Assembly: GCA_016872645.1 (NCBI GenBank)
Contig: VGZH01000039.1
Span: 1-50,868, forward strand
DNA: 50,868 nt
Source of the DNA: Planctomycetota bacterium
Lineage (GTDB): Bacteria > Planctomycetota > Planctomycetia > Planctomycetales > Planctomycetaceae
Reading direction: 5' to 3'
Shown here: positions 11,758 to 19,876 of the stretch, piece after piece
Layout of the letters: each line of letters starts with the position of its first letter
Numbering within the stretch: the first letter of the stretch is position 1
The notes under the pieces: generated by a model
The model's database searches: none
What the model was told of the DNA's origin: nothing
The model's input: only the letters and a program-made list of their open reading frames with translations
Made by a program: the position numbers and the translations under genes

Positions 11758-12249
11758 TCAAATCTGAACGGCCGTACGTCCGCGCGAAGTTCGAAATCCG
11801 TATTCAATGGCGAACCAATTGGCGTAGCGTTCGCGGTCCTCGGCGCGCGTGTTGCGTGTGTCGAGCACATGTGCAATGTCGTGGATCAAGACGTTGTTGA
11901 GGTAAAAGTCCTTGAGTGACTTCGTTGTCGAAGTCAGTGTCCATTCGCGGCCCGCTTCCGCCCAGACACCACCAAACATGCGAGCTTCAATCTGCTGCTG
12001 AGGAGTCGGTGGACAGACGTAGGTTTCCACGAGCGACTTCTCGATCGGGTACAGGTACACGCTGGCTCCCCACTGCATTCCGTAACAGGGGAACAAACCT
12101 CGACTTTTTGCACGATCGAAGTCGGCAGCAAAGACAGACACTGACGGTCGTGCCGATTGCGCAACGGAAGATCGGCAATCAAGGAGACTGGCGGAGGCGG
12201 CGGCGACGCGGTTATTTGGCTGTGATTCCCGCCGTCTTGTACGGCTCAC
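11758..12249 (-). CDS. Small protein with HDxxH motif, degenerate zincin-like
   Basis: About 163 residues from a GTG at 12249; the true start is uncertain and may be further in. The last third carries VLIHDIAHVLDTRNTRAEDRERYANWF. This has the layout of a gluzincin helix (HExxH followed by a downstream acidic helix), but the catalytic glutamate is aspartate (HDIAH). The chain may be a weakly active or non-catalytic zincin, or a metal-binding regulator. It overlaps the end of the kinase gene by 38 bases on the same strand, so it is almost certainly translated from the same message and may work with the kinase. Confidence 0.6.
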   Translation of the reverse strand: MSRTRRRESQPNNRVAAASASLLDCRSSVAQSARPSVSVFAADFDRAKSRGLFPCYGMQWGASVYLYPIEKSLVETYVCPPTPQQQIEARMFGGVWAEAGREWTLTSTTKSLKDFYLNNVLIHDIAHVLDTRNTRAEDRERYANWFAIEYGFRTSRGRTAVQI

Positions 12250-15200
12250 CCGCCTTGGCGACTAAAAATAATTCGGCGGTCGGACGTGTCGTCTCGAATT
12301 GAATTGATGGAACACGCGATCCACTATTGCCAAGCAAGTCGCGTTCACCGTTCGCGGCATTCTTTGTTTTGCGGTCTGTCCAGTTGTTCTCGATCGGTTT
12401 GTCGGCACTCATCAGCGAATTGAACTTGTTCGCGTCGTAGCCTTTCGCGATGAGCAACTCGGCCTTCGCCGGGCCTGAAAACAAACAATTGCGCCACTTC
12501 AGGTCGCCAGATCCTTCCCTTGGCATTGCCTCAAACAACAAACCGGCTTCGGCCTGATTGCGAAACGAGCAATGATCGATCAGCACATTTTTCGCCACCA
12601 CTCCTTCGGCGAAGCGAATACCGCTGGTTGACCCAGTCACTCCGCAGTTGCGGACGGCCAACGACTCAACAGAACCTTCAAGGAGGACGCCCGCCGACAT
12701 CGACCCAAAAAAACGGCAGCGTTGCACAGTGACGCGTTGACTCGCCCCACCATTGCCCGACTTGCCGATGTGGACACCAGCCGCGGTCGGAGAGGCTTTC
12801 TGAATTGTGTTCAATTCCAAAACGATGCCATCGGCTCCTTCCCCCCCGACCGCACCGCTCAGTTCGATCCCAGCTTTCCCAGGATCCGAGATGACACAAT
12901 TTCGAACTCGACAGCGTTCGACCGAACCGGAGATGACAATCCCCTTCTCCTTTTGCGGAAATCCCTCCAGATCAATTTTCAGGTTCTCGATCGTCACGCC
13001 GCTGCGGTTTTTGATGGTGATCGCTGGCTCGGAAAGGCTGGGAGATGTCAGCGTCGCCGGCTTTCCGGCGGTCTCCGAAGTCAGATGAACTTCGCCAGGA
13101 AATGATTCATCGAAGACGATCGCTTCCTCAAATATTTGCCCCGATTTCACCTGGATCAGGAATCTCAGCGGCTTTCCGTTGGCGGCTTTCTCGTGCTCGG
13201 CACGGCTCTCGACCGCGGAATGAACCGCTCGGCCGATTGATTTGAATTCGCCACCGGCTCCAACCACCAGCGTGACTTCATAAGCGGCTGACTTTTTTGC
13301 TCCGCCCGCCGCGCTGCTCCCCAGCAATTTTTCCGCTTTTCCATTCTTGGTGGAATTCGCGCTGGGATTGCCGGATTCACCCGAACCGCGAGTGCTCCAC
13401 CAAGCAATGCCTCCGATGACCACGACGCCAGCCAGCGCCAACGAGACGTATCGAACTGCGGGATTCTTGAGCAAGTCGCTGATCGAGTTCGCGGACTTCT
13501 TGAGAGTTGGTGCCACCAGCTCCGCACGACTAGCCCCGAAAGACAGCTCGGAGGCGTCCGACTCTGGCGATGGCGATGCAATCACCACTGTTTCCACAAA
13601 CGAAGGATTACGAGGAACCGACTTAATTGGAGCATCGTGTACTTCTGGTTCGACTTCCTCGGTGGATGTCTCTTCGCTTTGAGCACCGAAGAGCGCGAAA
13701 AGGTTGTCATCCTGTCCGGTCTCTGCTGAGGACTCCAAAGGGGTGACGAGGATCGCTTCATTTGCAGCTTGATTGTCAAACTGAAAGTCAGTCGGGGTCT
13801 GTGTGGTCTCCGAAGATGCTTCCGCAAAAAAGTTGATTGGGACTGGACCGGGTCCAGCGGAAGTCGTCTTAGGGACAGCGGCCATCACCGGTGACGCCAC
13901 AGGCGTTGCCACAACCGGGGCGGCAATCGGCACAACTGGTTTCGCCACAGGAGGCAGCGGGGCTGCCACCGGCTTAGCAATCGGAACAGCAAGCGGTGGC
14001 GCTGCGACCGGAACGACGACCGGCACGGCAATCGGCGGAGCCGTCGGACTCTGAGTTGGAGCGGCTGTCGCTGTTGTTGGCCGTAAAATGTCACCGGCCG
14101 AAGAATCATCGGCGTCTGCCGGACTTTCTACAGAACCCAAGACGTCTGAATTGGGCTTCAGAATCGCCGGGGCACTGTACAAATCTCGCGGCGGAAGAGC
14201 CGCTCGCGCACTCGCGTGCGAGAGCGGGAGACGGGACTGTTTCCAATCGGCACCAACATTGTCGGCCAACCATTGACGACACGCTTCGGCGACTTCAGCC
14301 GCAGATTGATAACGATCCTCCGGTTTCTTCTCGACCATCTTGTTGAGGATCGCGGATAACGAGACTGGGCAGTCGATCCGCGTATCGGTCAGCGGCGGAA
14401 ATGGCTTTGACTGATGCCAAATCAGCCTTTGCGTCAGCGTGCCTTCTGTGAACGGCGGATGTCCCGTCAGAAAGAAATACAGCGAGCACCCCAAACTATA
14501 GATGTCGGCTCGCGTATCGACCGCGTGGCTATCGAGCGCCTGTTCCGGGGCGAGATAGTCGGCGGTGCCGAGCACTTTTTCATCATGAGCCACCGTCAGC
14601 GGATTCGCTTCCGCATCGTTGAAGAAGCGTGCCAATCCCATGTCTAGGATTTTGATGACGCCGTTGGTATCGATCAGAATGTTTCCCGGCTTGATGTCGC
14701 GATGCACGAGTCCCGCGCGGTGCGCGTGCTCCAAGCCTTCGGCTGATTGCCGGATGTATTCGACCGCGTCGGCGAAGTTGGCTGGCCCGTTGCGAGCGAT
14801 CAATTCCTGCAAGCTCTGTCCGGTGACGTACTCCATCACCAGGAAGTGAGTCTGCGAATCGCGGTCCTGAGCACAATCGACGTCATAGGCACGCACGATG
14901 TTCGGGTGATCGACCGACGCGACCGCTTGTGCCTCGCGGTGAAAACGGGCGAGGTACGACGCCTCATTGACTCGTTTGGAGGGCAGCACTTTGATCGCGC
15001 AGCGTCGCTTCATTAGCACGTGCTCGGCCAGGTAGACCGAACTCATCCCCCCTTTACCTAGCAAGTCCAGCAGCTTGTACTTGCCCAGCGAGAAGCCCTT
15101 GTGCTTTCCGGCGAGCAGTTTCTCGGCCTGCCAGCGCGTGACGATCTCGTCACCAACGAGTGCATCGGCGATCGACTGCGAAGTGGTGACGTCGACCCCT

Positions 15201-15304
15201 TGAGCCTCGTACTGCTGCAACAGCTTTTGAAGCTTCTCCTTGTCGATCAAGCCGCTCTGCCGAACGACTTGCAAAAACGATTCGACAGTCAACTTGAGGG
15301 CCAT
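12212..15304 (-). CDS. Membrane Ser/Thr protein kinase with beta-helix ectodomain
   Basis: This encodes 1030 residues from the ATG at 15304. Order: an N-terminal helical region (1-70); a Hanks-type kinase domain (75-350) with glycine loop GKGGMSSVY, Lys105, HRDIKPGNIL (Asp203) and DMG (Asp221) instead of DFG; a Pro/Ala/Val-rich linker (about 415-480) with repeated P-V-A units; an acidic region; one membrane helix (619-637); and an outer part (about 675-985) with parallel beta-helix repeats (IKNRSGVTIENLKI, RVRNCVISDPGKAGI, VTVQRCRFFG, LIDHCSF). The kinase faces the cytoplasm and the beta helix, a fold usual in polysaccharide-binding or -cleaving proteins, faces outward, suggesting a receptor for a cell-surface or environmental polymer. 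No lyase residues can be asserted. Overlaps the downstream HDxxH gene. Confidence 0.9.
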   Translation of the reverse strand: MALKLTVESFLQVVRQSGLIDKEKLQKLLQQYEAQGVDVTTSQSIADALVGDEIVTRWQAEKLLAGKHKGFSLGKYKLLDLLGKGGMSSVYLAEHVLMKRRCAIKVLPSKRVNEASYLARFHREAQAVASVDHPNIVRAYDVDCAQDRDSQTHFLVMEYVTGQSLQELIARNGPANFADAVEYIRQSAEGLEHAHRAGLVHRDIKPGNILIDTNGVIKILDMGLARFFNDAEANPLTVAHDEKVLGTADYLAPEQALDSHAVDTRADIYSLGCSLYFFLTGHPPFTEGTLTQRLIWHQSKPFPPLTDTRIDCPVSLSAILNKMVEKKPEDRYQSAAEVAEACRQWLADNVGADWKQSRLPLSHASARAALPPRDLYSAPAILKPNSDVLGSVESPADADDSSAGDILRPTTATAAPTQSPTAPPIAVPVVVPVAAPPLAVPIAKPVAAPLPPVAKPVVPIAAPVVATPVASPVMAAVPKTTSAGPGPVPINFFAEASSETTQTPTDFQFDNQAANEAILVTPLESSAETGQDDNLFALFGAQSEETSTEEVEPEVHDAPIKSVPRNPSFVETVVIASPSPESDASELSFGASRAELVAPTLKKSANSISDLLKNPAVRYVSLALAGVVVIGGIAWWSTRGSGESGNPSANSTKNGKAEKLLGSSAAGGAKKSAAYEVTLVVGAGGEFKSIGRAVHSAVESRAEHEKAANGKPLRFLIQVKSGQIFEEAIVFDESFPGEVHLTSETAGKPATLTSPSLSEPAITIKNRSGVTIENLKIDLEGFPQKEKGIVISGSVERCRVRNCVISDPGKAGIELSGAVGGEGADGIVLELNTIQKASPTAAGVHIGKSGNGGASQRVTVQRCRFFGSMSAGVLLEGSVESLAVRNCGVTGSTSGIRFAEGVVAKNVLIDHCSFRNQAEAGLLFEAMPREGSGDLKWRNCLFSGPAKAELLIAKGYDANKFNSLMSADKPIENNWTDRKTKNAANGERDLLGNSGSRVPSIQFETTRPTAELFLVAKAGEPYKTAGITAK

Positions 15305-15479
15305 GCGAAACCAACCCAAACATGCAGCGTGATGAGGGACGCGGAATATAGTTTGAAAAAGCGGGGAGTGGTATTAAATCAGTCGATTCTTTGGCTTTCC
15401 AGCACGGGGCCACGCTCCCCGAATCGCCGACTTTTGGAAACGGCTGGATTCGTCCAAATCATCGTCCTGTTCCGGGACA

Positions 15480-16673: not shown

Positions 16674-16697
16674 CCTGTCGCGGAGCGACAGGGCTAC
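16674..16697. repeat. GTAGCCC hairpin element, copy 1
   Basis: A perfect 8-bp stem (CCTGTCGC, GGA loop, GCGACAGG) is followed by GGCTAC. Read on the minus strand it begins GTAGCCC, and this TAG is the stop codon of the thioesterase gene. A second copy at 36808-36831 does the same for another gene. It also sits between convergent hemE and thioesterase genes, where it could act as a 3'-end structure. Confidence 0.7.
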
Positions 16698-17089
16698 GAT
16701 TCGGCACACATCTGTAACAACTCGCTCGGTATCCGTTGCAGTTTGCCAGCACGGTCTACGCAAGCCAGCGTGCTGTGCCCACTGCAGAGCAGCATGCCAT
16801 CTCGCAACAATTCGTACTCGTGCTCGAGCTTCGCTTCTGTCGCAGCCGTGATCGTCGTCCGCAGCGTCAGCAAGTCGTCGTACCGAGCCGGCACGCGATA
16901 CCTGCAATCGAGCTTCGCGACGACGAGGAACAAGCCGCCCTCCTCCATCGCTCGGTAGTCGCCCCCTTGAGCCCGAAACAATTCTGTCCGTCCAAGCTCA
17001 AAGTAGCAGAAGTAATTCGCATGATGCAGAAACCCCATCGCGTCGGTTTCCGAGTACCGCACCCGAATCTGAATCTCATGTTGTCGCAT
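16694..17089 (-). CDS. Acyl-CoA thioesterase, YbgC/4HBT hotdog family
   Basis: This encodes 131 residues from the ATG at 17089; a longer frame to 17488 is antisense-like and crosses a repeat. The hotdog signature [19 protein letters not shown] carries the catalytic Asp (residue 16), and [11 protein letters not shown] follows. Members hydrolyse acyl-CoA thioesters in the cytoplasm; the YbgC subgroup often works with envelope functions. No tol-pal gene is nearby. It lies downstream of the ALDH/ligase pair on the same strand but is separated by a hairpin. A shared role in acyl metabolism is possible but not shown. The stop codon lies inside a dispersed repeat. Confidence 0.88.
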
Positions 17090-17190: not shown

Positions 17191-18627
17191 TCAATGGCTC
17201 GGCGGCTGCGTGTTTTGGAACGCTCTCGCCCGGAACAGGAAGTCGATGATGTTGCCTTCGTGGGGTTGCATCCAGTGGAGTTGGATTGTCTTTACCTCGC
17301 CGATGTTCAGGCGGTCGATGTTGGTGGCGTCGAGTAGCTCTTGCGACCACTTGGGGTCTTTCGTCAGGCAGCTCGCGACCAGAGTGGTGCCGATCTTCTT
17401 GAGCATTTCGTTCTGCGGGCATTTCACGACCGAGCAGAACGGGAACATGTACTCGGTGTTCGCAATCGGCGGTTCGGTGCTGCTGCAATGCACGATTGTC
17501 GGGCGGAGGAAGTCGTAACGCTCGTGAGCGACGTGGCGGTCGCCGTTGCGGTACTTCGCGGTGACTTCGGTCGCGCCGGGTGCCTTTACCAAGTCTTCGA
17601 TCTGCGCGTTGATCGCCTTTGCCGCACCGGGAACGGTGAACGCGGCCAGTGGCGATTTGGGGTCGCTCATCGGCAGCGGAGCGACCGGGCCGAGCCGCTT
17701 GGCGAGGGCTTCCGCAATTTCTTCAGTATGGCGTGAGGCCCAGATGCCCGAACAGGAAATGCAACTTCGGCCGCTGTTGACAAAGATGCTGTCGGCCATG
17801 AGGTCGATGTATTTCTCCCACTGATCGACCATGTCGTCGCCGAGCAGAAACTTCGAGAAGCCCGGCCCGTGAGCCTGCACGCGCGGGTTGCCGTGATAGC
17901 GCTCGACGGTCGGCAGGCCGCCGAAGATCATGGCTCGGTTACAGGTCTCCAACACGGCGGCTCCGCATTCGGGACCGCCGGGATAAATACAAAAGACTTC
18001 GCGCGGCACGCCGGCTTGGGCGAACGCTTCATAAATTCGGTACGGAGTCCACGGCTCTTGCGGACCGGGTTTGAGCACAAGGCCGATCTGTAACGGAATG
18101 ACCGGCATCCACAGCGTATGCACGCCGGGCGAGTTCGATGGCAGCACCATACCCAGCACGTTCGTCTGAGCCTGATAGCTGACCATCACGCCTCGGCTCT
18201 CCATGCCGTAGCCCTTGGTCAGAATCTCGAACGGCAGCCCACGAGTCAGAGCCTCCAACGTGTGCCGCATGTTGCGCAGGACGTAAGCGTTCTTCTTCAT
18301 ATTGCCAGCACACATGTGCTCGGGGAGGCCAGTCGTCGCCGACTGCATGCGGCAGAACTCTTGCGGGTTTTGCGTCCCATTACCGAGCGGCAACGTGGCG
18401 TTCAAATATAAATCGGCGGCCTTCTCGGCCATGCTGCACAGCTGCTCGACGCTGAATTGCCGGAGGATGTCGCGGGCCTTGCCTTGCTTCCGCATGTCCA
18501 TCTTGATGAGACCAGCGTTCGCGTTATTGACCGTCGCGACCGCCTCGCCGGTTTCAAAGTGGACGATCTTGTCCTTCTCCATGGACTCGTATGGCTGGCC
18601 CCAGCGGATCACAGGAATTTCAAGCAT
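17191..18627 (-). CDS. Aldehyde dehydrogenase-fold acyl reductase, LuxC-like
   Basis: This encodes 478 residues, with AAGGA upstream of the ATG at 18627. The ALDH fold is shown by the nucleotide-binding part ([21 protein letters not shown], residues 146-166) and a catalytic cysteine in [11 protein letters not shown] (Cys289; Cys292 is an alternative). The usual FTGS loop reads MIFGG instead, as in acyl-CoA/acyl-enzyme reductases more than in ordinary aldehyde dehydrogenases. The next gene upstream on the same strand encodes a short acyl-adenylate ligase. Such a pair fits the LuxC/LuxE logic: the ligase activates an acid, the acyl group passes to the reductase cysteine, and NAD(P)H reduces it to an aldehyde. 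The substrate (fatty or aromatic acid) is open. No luxAB-like gene is here. Confidence 0.8.
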
Positions 18628-18636
18628 GGTTGTTCC

Positions 18637-18775
18637 TTTGGAGTGCGACGATCTATCTGATCGTCGCTTTCATTTGCGGCGGAGCCGCTTTGGTTGTTCG
18701 AGAGTGAATGCGGAAAACAAAACGAAAAGCGGCTCCGCCGCGAGGGAAAGCGGGGATGCATCCCCGCACTCCAAA
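18637..18775. repeat. 139-bp composite palindromic element with terminal inverted repeats
   Basis: The ends are an 11-base inverted repeat, TTTGGAGTGCG (18637-18647) and CGCACTCCAAA (18765-18775). Inside are three more structures: GCGACGATC / GATCGTCGC (18645-18667, loop TATCT); GCGGCGGAGCCGCTTT paired perfectly with AAAGCGGCTCCGCCGC across about 35 bases; and an 18-base perfect palindrome GCGGGGATGCATCCCCGC. No reading frame of note is present. It exactly fills the gap between the acyl-ligase and reductase genes, so it must be transcribed within that unit. It looks like a MITE- or REP-like element. Confidence 0.8.
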
Positions 18776-19876
18776 TTAGTAAACCCCGACCGTTGTCGTC
18801 GCCGCGAACTCGTGGAACGGTCGCGTGCCGCTGATGCCGTCCCAGGGGTATTTGTCGTGGGGGAGTTCGCGTTCGCCCTCGTCGCGTTCCATGAAGCCTG
18901 GGACGAAGAGTTCTTTCGTCATCGTGTAGAGCTTCACGCGGCCGGTGCTGCCGTAGGGGACGACTTGGTTGTAGTCCTTAAATTCGACGGTCTCGATGAC
19001 GGCTCGCGGTTGCGGAGCGTAGTAAGTGATCTTGAAGTTGTCGGCCGGATCGAAGGGCTTGCCGCAGGCGAGGCCCATCAGCGTGTTGCCGTAGGTCGGC
19101 GTGATGTAGACGTTCGGGCCGAGCAGTTCCTCGCGGCAGAAGCGATACCACTGCGGAGTGAACTCGGTGCCGCCGGCGAAGATTCCCTTGATGCCGGACT
19201 CTTCGATGCTGCTTCCCTTGTCGATCAGCTTCAGGGCGAGAGCTTCGAGCAGTTTCGGCGTCGCGAAGGCGCACTTGATGTCGTGGCCAGCCGAGAGAAT
19301 TGTCACCGCCTGATCGATGACGTGATCGGCATACGCTTTCACGCCGGAGATGTCTCCCTTCTTCAACAGCTTGACGACCCAGCGCGGATCGAGGTCCACG
19401 CAGAAGCAGATGCCGCCGCGATACTGCGCGAGATGCTCGACCGCGAGTCGCAAGCGGCGCGGGCCGGAGGGGCCGAGCATCAGCCAGTTCGAGCCGCGCG
19501 GGAAGTGCTCGTCGGGCAGCGTGTCGCTGAAGTTCTCGTAGTCGATCCAGTGATCCTCGATGACCATGCGGCTTTTCGGGATGCCGGTCGTGCCGCCGGT
19601 CTCAAAGACGTACACAGGCTTGTCGGCCAGACCCTTCGGAACCCAGCGACGGATCGGGCCGCCGCGGAGCCATTCGTCCTCGAAGTTCGGAAACTTCTTG
19701 AGGTCCTCGAAGCAATTCACTTCCCTGAGCGGGTCAAATTTCAGTTCCCGTTTTTTTTCCAGCCAGAACGGGCAACCGGTTTCATCGCTGAAGTGCCAGC
19801 GGACGGTTTGGCGAGTGTGTTCGTCGAGCAGTTCTTTGGCTTTGGCCTGTTTGGCGGCCAGGGCAGTGTCACTCAC
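18776..19876 (-). CDS. Acyl-adenylate-forming ligase, LuxE/PaaK-like
   Basis: This encodes 366 residues from a GTG at 19876, with AAGGAG 12 bases upstream; the closer ATG is out of frame and stops after five codons. The adenylation P-loop is FETGGTTGIPKSR (91-103). The later YITPTYGNTLMG and GSTGRVKLYTM segments match the family. The length is that of LuxE acyl-protein synthetases (about 370) and shorter than phenylacetate-CoA ligases (about 430), lacking most of the C-terminal lid. It would activate a carboxylic acid with ATP and hand the acyl group on. It is transcribed before the LuxC-like reductase, separated only by the 139-bp palindromic element. Confidence 0.8.
   Translation of the reverse strand: MSDTALAAKQAKAKELLDEHTRQTVRWHFSDETGCPFWLEKKRELKFDPLREVNCFEDLKKFPNFEDEWLRGGPIRRWVPKGLADKPVYVFETGGTTGIPKSRMVIEDHWIDYENFSDTLPDEHFPRGSNWLMLGPSGPRRLRLAVEHLAQYRGGICFCVDLDPRWVVKLLKKGDISGVKAYADHVIDQAVTILSAGHDIKCAFATPKLLEALALKLIDKGSSIEESGIKGIFAGGTEFTPQWYRFCREELLGPNVYITPTYGNTLMGLACGKPFDPADNFKITYYAPQPRAVIETVEFKDYNQVVPYGSTGRVKLYTMTKELFVPGFMERDEGERELPHDKYPWDGISGTRPFHEFAATTTVGVY

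Follow-up and report, generated by a model that had tools for sequence, protein, structure and literature searches.

A conserved EhpF/EhpG-type gene pair in planctomycetes, predicted to act as a two-protein aromatic acid reductase

In a 50,868-nucleotide stretch of DNA from a Planctomycetota bacterium (contig VGZH01000039.1 of assembly GCA_016872645.1; hereafter the window), two adjacent genes encode a short adenylate-forming ligase of the EhpF family (LIG) and a reductase with an aldehyde dehydrogenase (ALDH) fold. We read the two proteins, with a probability of roughly 0.6, as an aromatic acid reductase of the EhpF/EhpG and GriC/GriD kind that would use ATP and NAD(P)H and serve a chorismate-derived pathway of planctomycetes. 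The pair itself is a further member of the known EhpF/EhpG kind. What sets it apart is its conservation and its place in a phylum-wide operon that also carries c7, a diverged homologue of chorismate lyase. We base this reading on homology, gene pairing, active-site residues, a common operon in related families and co-occurrence across genomes, all obtained computationally. A preliminary description of the locus had called the pair LuxC/LuxE-like; as far as the sequence tells, its observation was right and its functional idea largely right, and the LuxC/LuxE label was wrong.

The ligase, its partner and their relatives

The best match of LIG in the PDB is EhpF (3hgu, 3hgv and 3l2k; E = 2.4e-42, residues 20-336), and the PDB family that follows scores only 0.03. 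The Pfam AMP-binding model matches weakly (E = 9e-5) and under its cut-off. Motif alignment places a P-loop, ETGGTTGIPK, at residue 92 and shows that the C-terminus lies about 50 residues past an A8-like motif. Because the chain stops there, the usual C-terminal ANL domain would not fit. LIG is thus homologous to EhpF and lacks that domain. A planctomycete origin of the pair is supported: the best 80 named ligase matches of 406 relatives bear planctomycete names, except two labelled just 'bacterium'.

The 478-residue partner matches the ALDH model PF00171 (E = 5e-21). According to the open reading frame (ORF) listing of the window, its gene lies on the same strand as the ligase gene, which comes first, with a spacing of 148 bp. 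ORFs, Pfam and the PDB match thus confirm what had been described from the letters alone, an adenylate-forming ligase next to an ALDH-fold protein with a GRSC site. This site occupies residues 286-289 (NSGRSC), and Cys289, the candidate catalytic cysteine, aligns with the catalytic cysteine of GabD and BetB. G286, R287 and C289 are invariant across 37 planctomycete ALDH sequences.

An active-site alignment, from which EutE, PaaZ and LuxC rows were excluded, indicates that the pair ALDHs keep the catalytic-type cysteine (21/21) and that none has the general-base glutamate (0/21), which is present in both ordinary ALDHs, GabD and BetB (2/2). The position of the glutamate is taken by histidine in 14 of 14 planctomycete rows (His253 in HGPGFSK in the window) and by Gln, Leu, Arg or Tyr in the seven non-planctomycete pair ALDHs. 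A GPGxS-like motif is common to the pair ALDHs, with GTG in three planctomycete rows and RPG in Burkholderia. Such an active site would favour acyl transfer and reduction over aldehyde oxidation, whether or not coenzyme A (CoA) takes part. An AlphaFold model (predicted local distance difference test score, pLDDT, 84) has the ALDH fold, with a best Z of 32.5 and a root-mean-square deviation of 3.0 over 431 residues at 16% identity. The model confirms the fold only; it does not discriminate among kinds of ALDH, and the absence of EhpG, LuxC and carboxylic acid reductase (CAR) from the structure lists is uninformative.

We built an ALDH tree of 30 rows, which included five LuxC proteins from other planctomycete families and GabD, BetB, PaaZ and EutE of E. 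coli; EutE, PaaZ and one LuxC row were flagged as long branches. The four E. coli proteins are set apart by a 99/99 branch, and LuxC separates from the pair ALDHs at 100/100. In the ligase tree, LuxE and PaaK stand together apart from LIG (100/99); a Halomarina row with a branch length of 6.15, probably in a wrong reading frame, was disregarded. The grouping with ordinary ALDHs and CoA ligases that would have spoken against a dedicated acid reductase is thus not seen.

The Pfam models agree with the trees on LuxC and LuxE. PF05893 (LuxC) has no match in the window's genome at E ≤ 0.001, and the same model matches in 9 of 14 control genomes; at 1e-20 it is found in 6 of 199 genomes of the phylum, the window's not among them. 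PF04443 (LuxE) matches none of the window proteins at E ≤ 1 and is likewise negative in the genome, and 11 of the 199 phylum genomes match it (9 over the cut-off). We therefore rule out kinship to LuxC/LuxE by these absent matches and the separating trees. The earlier statement that the pair is not tied to luminescence is supported. As side observations, the true LuxC (6/199) and LuxE (9/199 over the cut-off) occur in other planctomycete families (loci L273-L284), and in two genomes the LuxC frame extends to 876 and 899 codons, perhaps a fusion.

Ordinary ALDHs are assumed to be common on plasmids. A tblastn search with the window ALDH against 72,556 plasmid records (E ≤ 1e-20) returned nine records, namely four from Pantoea, two from haloarchaea and one each from E. 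coli, Burkholderia and Streptomyces. All nine encode an EhpF-type ligase, which adjoins the ALDH except in Streptomyces NBC_00998, where it lies about 2 kb off on the opposite strand. Conversely, an EhpF-type ligase is found in 28 plasmid records, 19 of them without an ALDH match at 1e-20; two of these 19 were inspected, and an ALDH adjoins the ligase in one (L034) and none is annotated in the other (L032).

Chorismate-pathway genes surround five annotated bacterial pairs outside the phylum. Two sit in phz clusters: the Pantoea plasmids carry an ehp-like cluster (one of four examined), and the E. coli plasmid carries a phenazine cluster. The Burkholderia pair lies with isochorismatase and anthranilate-synthase-family genes together with DAHP synthase, another bacterial pair has DAHP synthase and pabB alongside, and the Streptomyces pair has aroF and isochorismate synthase.

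Conservation in the class and a common operon in the phylum

We surveyed 59 related genomes including the window's own, 37 of them from its family and, within these, 12 from its genus. The ligase is present in 50 and the ALDH in 47, and the two genes are mostly close on one strand; their pairing is not due to chance. The ligase is found in 36 of the 37 genomes of the family and in 14 of the 22 outside it. Of 41 loci with the ALDH, the window among them, 28 have both genes on one strand no more than 600 bp apart; some genomes (e.g., G015 and G036) keep both genes far apart.

Of the 59 genomes, 42 encode the full set of LIG, ALDH, a radical S-adenosylmethionine (SAM) enzyme, c7 and an iron-dependent alcohol dehydrogenase (FeADH), 8 lack all five and 9 are mixed; FeADH was counted at a threshold of about 350 bits, set once the scores were known. 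The eight genomes that lack all five comprise seven of family f2 and one of f7, and each of the nine mixed genomes is a draft in more than 200 contigs.

In several loci of families f3 and f5, the pair is followed by conserved genes for FeADH, a pyrroloquinoline quinone (PQQ)-type propeller, a HemN-like radical-SAM enzyme and two further proteins, one GcvH-like with a lipoyl domain and one of the 4Fe-4S type. In the window's genome the counterparts of these genes lie on other contigs. Contig C97 carries the radical-SAM gene, FeADH, a propeller and c7; contig C22 carries the GcvH-like and 4Fe-4S genes, two more propellers, a DUF116/polyprenyl-synthase fusion and a squalene-cyclase-like protein. 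In another genome (L228) the pair lies about 7 kb from c7, a flavin enzyme and a radical-SAM gene.

Across the phylum, the ligase is present in 120 of 392 genomes, some of them within the class. We examined 40 loci outside the class, which were picked from ligase matches and are not a random sample; family labels at these loci are matches at 1e-12 to hidden Markov models built from the class. LIG and ALDH are both on the stretch in 24 of the 40. Among these 24, the companions of the pair are an SSF symporter (23 loci), FeADH (22), the radical-SAM enzyme (20), the propeller family PROP (17), the flavin enzyme c15 (14), c7 (10) and a PaaK-type ligase (5). The count for c7 may be too low, and PQQ propellers as alike as c9, c10 and PROP may have been mistaken for one another. 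The usual order is PQQ-PQQ-SSF-LIG-ALDH-FeADH-propeller-radical-SAM-c7-c15. Several operons then continue with a glycosyltransferase and a 4HBT thioesterase (Pfam was run on one glycosyltransferase and three thioesterases). In the literature searched, mostly titles and the openings of abstracts, we found no description of such a planctomycete operon or pathway.

The PQQ-type propellers (c9, c10 and PROP) and the SSF symporter are regular members of the operon (L308-L318, L336-L339 and others), an odd company for a purely biosynthetic cluster.

The other 16 of the 40 loci have LIG without ALDH on the stretch, and 12 of these ligases are below 40% identity to the query and have other surroundings. 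L303-L307 are examples of these; there and at L334, a more remote EhpF-like ligase (33-37% identity), with no ALDH on the stretch, sits in a conserved neighbourhood. Pfam identifies an MMPL exporter, a U32 peptidase and an aminotransferase in this neighbourhood at L304, and cytochrome-like genes were noted there by eye. One related genome also carries a second ligase besides its usual copy (G031:C268:10954-11922), with 31% identity to the LIG of the window.

The c7 protein, the substrate and competing readings

The c7 proteins, of about 180 residues, are encoded outside the window. A profile of 14 members matches E. coli UbiC at P = 1.8e-4 and the single UbiC sequences of Klebsiella, Serratia and Proteus at 6.2e-4, 0.0054 and 0.0065. 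Against the four aligned UbiC sequences the value is 4.9e-5, with a best of 0.028 among 120 shuffles and 160 decoys. A 24-member profile compared with the four-sequence UbiC profile gave P = 3.7e-8 and a probability of 95%, and the best of 120 column shuffles reached 0.012. Arg80 and Glu178 of c7 are invariant (24/24), and in the alignment of the 14-member profile they fall on UbiC Arg77 and Glu156 (Met1 numbering), which we take to be the active-site pair of UbiC. The Arg, the Glu and a PLG motif of the chorismate lyase are conserved in c7. It differs from UbiC in being very diverged, in having no Pfam match and in lying beside acid-reductase pathway genes. A lyase of the Rv2949c type was found in none of 199 phylum genomes. 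We regard c7 as a diverged homologue of chorismate lyase and, since homology is all that this shows, do not assign it as a chorismate lyase.

Because of the homology of c7 and the chorismate-pathway genes around the five pairs, the pair is likely to act on an aromatic acid, with 4-hydroxybenzoate the simplest candidate. The preliminary description had proposed that two proteins take free acid to aldehyde, for lipid, hydrocarbon or aromatic metabolism. Our computations support this route, and of the substrates named they make the aromatic ones likelier than the others.

We infer the enzymatic activity, the CoA-free transfer, the order of steps and the end product as follows. The c7 protein would make 4-hydroxybenzoate or a close relative. 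LIG would adenylate the carboxylate (acid + ATP to acyl-AMP), and the acyl-AMP would pass directly to Cys289 of the ALDH; a direct handover is suggested because the C-terminal domain with which acyl-CoA ligases form thioesters is missing from LIG. Hydride from NAD(P)H would then reduce the enzyme thioester to free aldehyde (hydroxybenzaldehyde). Since the lost general-base glutamate disfavours hydrolysis, the ALDH is expected to run toward reduction. FeADH may convert hydroxybenzaldehyde to the alcohol, and the HemN-like radical-SAM enzyme and the flavin enzyme probably modify the product further. One version of this route has chorismate ending in a new small-molecule redox cofactor or quinone, its carboxylate reduced by LIG, ALDH and FeADH, the product altered by the radical-SAM and flavin enzymes and then used by the PQQ-type propellers of the operon; we consider this version improbable.

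Several observations weigh against an aromatic acid reductase in a chorismate-derived pathway. Several searches count against the link to chorismate lyase: Pfam and NCBIfam give no chorismate-lyase match for any of 14 c7 members, PDB profile searches with c7 are not significant (2nwi 0.28; Nup50 0.023 and 2nwi 0.032), two of the four single UbiC sequences match only at P of about 0.006, and the best local alignment with 24 members stops before the Glu. A single-sequence structure model of c7 was useless (pLDDT 31) and was not used, and 14 of the 24 distant loci showed no c7 on their stretch. The pair is missing from families f2 (7/7) and f7 (one genome). Co-occurrence is carried by two or three family-level losses, not by 59 independent events; with so few independent losses, Fisher values overstate independence. 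One 95% complete genome (G019) has c7 and FeADH and lacks LIG, ALDH and the radical-SAM enzyme. The general-base glutamate is also lost in CoA-acylating ALDHs. In the ALDH tree, the planctomycete proteins (85/97) and the other pair ALDHs (79/81) are joined by a branch that is not firm, and identity to the Pantoea ALDH is only 22.7%; the EhpG link draws on the plasmid search and the common motif, not on the tree. Beyond the phylum, the Streptomyces ligase L032 lies beside a type I polyketide synthase on an 11 kb stretch where no ALDH is annotated, and no aromatic genes flank the haloarchaeal pair L035. The kinship to GriC/GriD is one of description together with 29.5-32.7% matches to Streptomyces proteins annotated as arylcarboxylate reductase.

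The rival that survives best is a CoA-linked variant, in which LIG or the PaaK-type ligase would make an aryl-CoA and the ALDH would be a CoA-acylating reductase. It gains from the PaaK-type ligase in 5 of the 24 distant loci, from the 4HBT-thioesterase homologue in 17 of the 40 and from the glutamate loss, which acylating ALDHs share. We hold it to be unlikely, as LIG has no room for the usual C-terminal domain, the acylating model MMSDH of NCBIfam scores 33 of 448.5 bits and the acylating EutE falls outside the pair group, though on a long branch of unsure place.

A degradative direction, in which the ALDH oxidises an aromatic aldehyde, the iron-dependent enzyme oxidises the alcohol and the SSF protein imports the substrate, would account for the transporter and alcohol dehydrogenase of the distant operons and for the ALDH fold itself. 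It is quite unlikely given that the general-base glutamate is found in 0 of 21 pair ALDHs, that oxidation would hardly call for an adenylating partner or a chorismate-lyase homologue, and that wide conservation (50/59) suits biosynthesis better. A fatty acid reductase like LuxC/LuxE, whose long-chain aldehydes would feed lipid or hydrocarbon metabolism, shares the two-gene layout and the same general chemistry, and the DUF116/polyprenyl-synthase and squalene-cyclase-like genes near pathway genes in some genomes make lipid chemistry possible, but it is hardly credible in view of the negative Pfam models and separate trees, the five relatives outside the phylum that sit with chorismate-pathway genes and the chorismate-lyase homologue in the operon at 10 of 24 distant loci.

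Neighbouring genes and known two-protein reductases

The thioesterase that had been reported downstream of the pair is present (Table 1). Among 40 loci of the class, some of whose stretches end near the ALDH, it lies near the ALDH in 3 of 5 loci of the same genus and in 0 of 35 of other genera. A homologue of the 4HBT thioesterase of L309 occurs in 17 of the 40 distant loci. The operon thioesterase of L311 has 45% identity (7e-31) to a protein encoded next to c7 in the window's genome (L146:8610-9197) and 24.6% (1e-7) to the YbgC protein of the window, whose own best match among operon thioesterases is 1e-13 (L317, 29%). Within the examined parts of the window's genome, the protein next to c7 is the closer counterpart. 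Membership of the window thioesterase in the unit is not supported, as it is a genus-only neighbour with a closer operon-type homologue elsewhere in the genome; it is probably not part of the system.

Table 1. Coordinates of the gene pair and its downstream neighbour in the window
Feature	Position	Strand	Remarks
LIG, short adenylate-forming ligase, EhpF family	18776-19876	-	366 aa, GTG start
ALDH, aldehyde-dehydrogenase-fold reductase, EhpG type	17191-18627	-	478 aa, ATG start
YbgC/4HBT (hot-dog) thioesterase, downstream neighbour	16694-17089	-	131 aa

Upstream of the pair, on the same strand, lies a phosphate-selective-porin-like gene (PF07396; 20351-21787), and positions 12212-15319 encode a protein kinase fused to a right-handed beta-helix region. 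None of the ORFs identified between 12 and 25 kb of the window is a phenazine gene. On contig C22, the DUF116-polyprenyl synthase fusion, the squalene-cyclase-like gene and the 4Fe-4S and GcvH-like lipoyl genes form a conserved four-gene set (L147:4330-10574), part of which joins the acid-reductase cluster in some f3 and f5 loci.

One-chain CARs of the Nocardia type convert acid to aldehyde with ATP and NADPH. They hold adenylation, carrier and reductase domains in one chain; in the two window proteins, both single-domain, Pfam found neither a carrier nor any second domain, and identity with a one-chain CAR is rejected. LuxC/LuxE share the two-protein layout and the general chemical logic proposed here (adenylation, acyl transfer to a cysteine and reduction), and they belong to different protein families by Pfam and by tree. 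The comparison with arylcarboxylate reductases, which had been suggested as a reference, fits EhpF/EhpG and GriC/GriD.

An excerpt of PMC10179220 describes GriC/GriD of grixazone biosynthesis in Streptomyces griseus as forming an acyl-AMP by an AMP-binding protein, after which 3-amino-4-hydroxybenzoate is reduced to the aryl aldehyde. As far as that excerpt goes, it supports a scheme of acyl-AMP formation followed by reduction for an aryl acid. The likeness to our pair is one of description, and GriC/GriD belong to secondary metabolism and differ from the window pair in the source of their aromatic acid. PMC11429834 mentions GriC/GriD solely among its references.

EhpF is part of the pathway by which Enterobacter agglomerans makes a phenazine antibiotic, and most of EhpF-O convert phenazine-1,6-dicarboxylate onwards, according to part of PMC3175449; a passage of PMC11278526 names an adjacent pair ehpF/ehpG in Proteus mirabilis. 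In the D-alanylgriseoluteic acid phenazine cluster of Pantoea/Enterobacter agglomerans, the ligase is homologous to LIG and of the same length. The Pantoea plasmid has the ligase and ALDH in the order of the window, annotated only as an AMP-binding protein and an aldehyde dehydrogenase; we assigned the Ehp names by match and position. The Pantoea ALDH shares the GPGxSK motif and the cysteine of the window ALDH, and identities between the two pairs are 33% for the ligase and 22.7% for the ALDH.

To our knowledge, the two-protein acyl-AMP/ALDH reductases described so far (EhpF/EhpG and GriC/GriD) come from antibiotic clusters. Unlike these examples, the planctomycete pair is conserved through most sampled families of a class, whereas EhpF/EhpG sit in an accessory cluster. 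The planctomycete enzymes may widen the set of CoA-free acid reductases for aromatic aldehyde production. In distant families of the phylum the pair is a fixed part of an operon of some ten genes that includes c7, a radical-SAM enzyme and PQQ-type propellers, and, unlike EhpF/EhpG, it shares its operon in related families with FeADH, the radical-SAM enzyme, the SSF symporter and c7.

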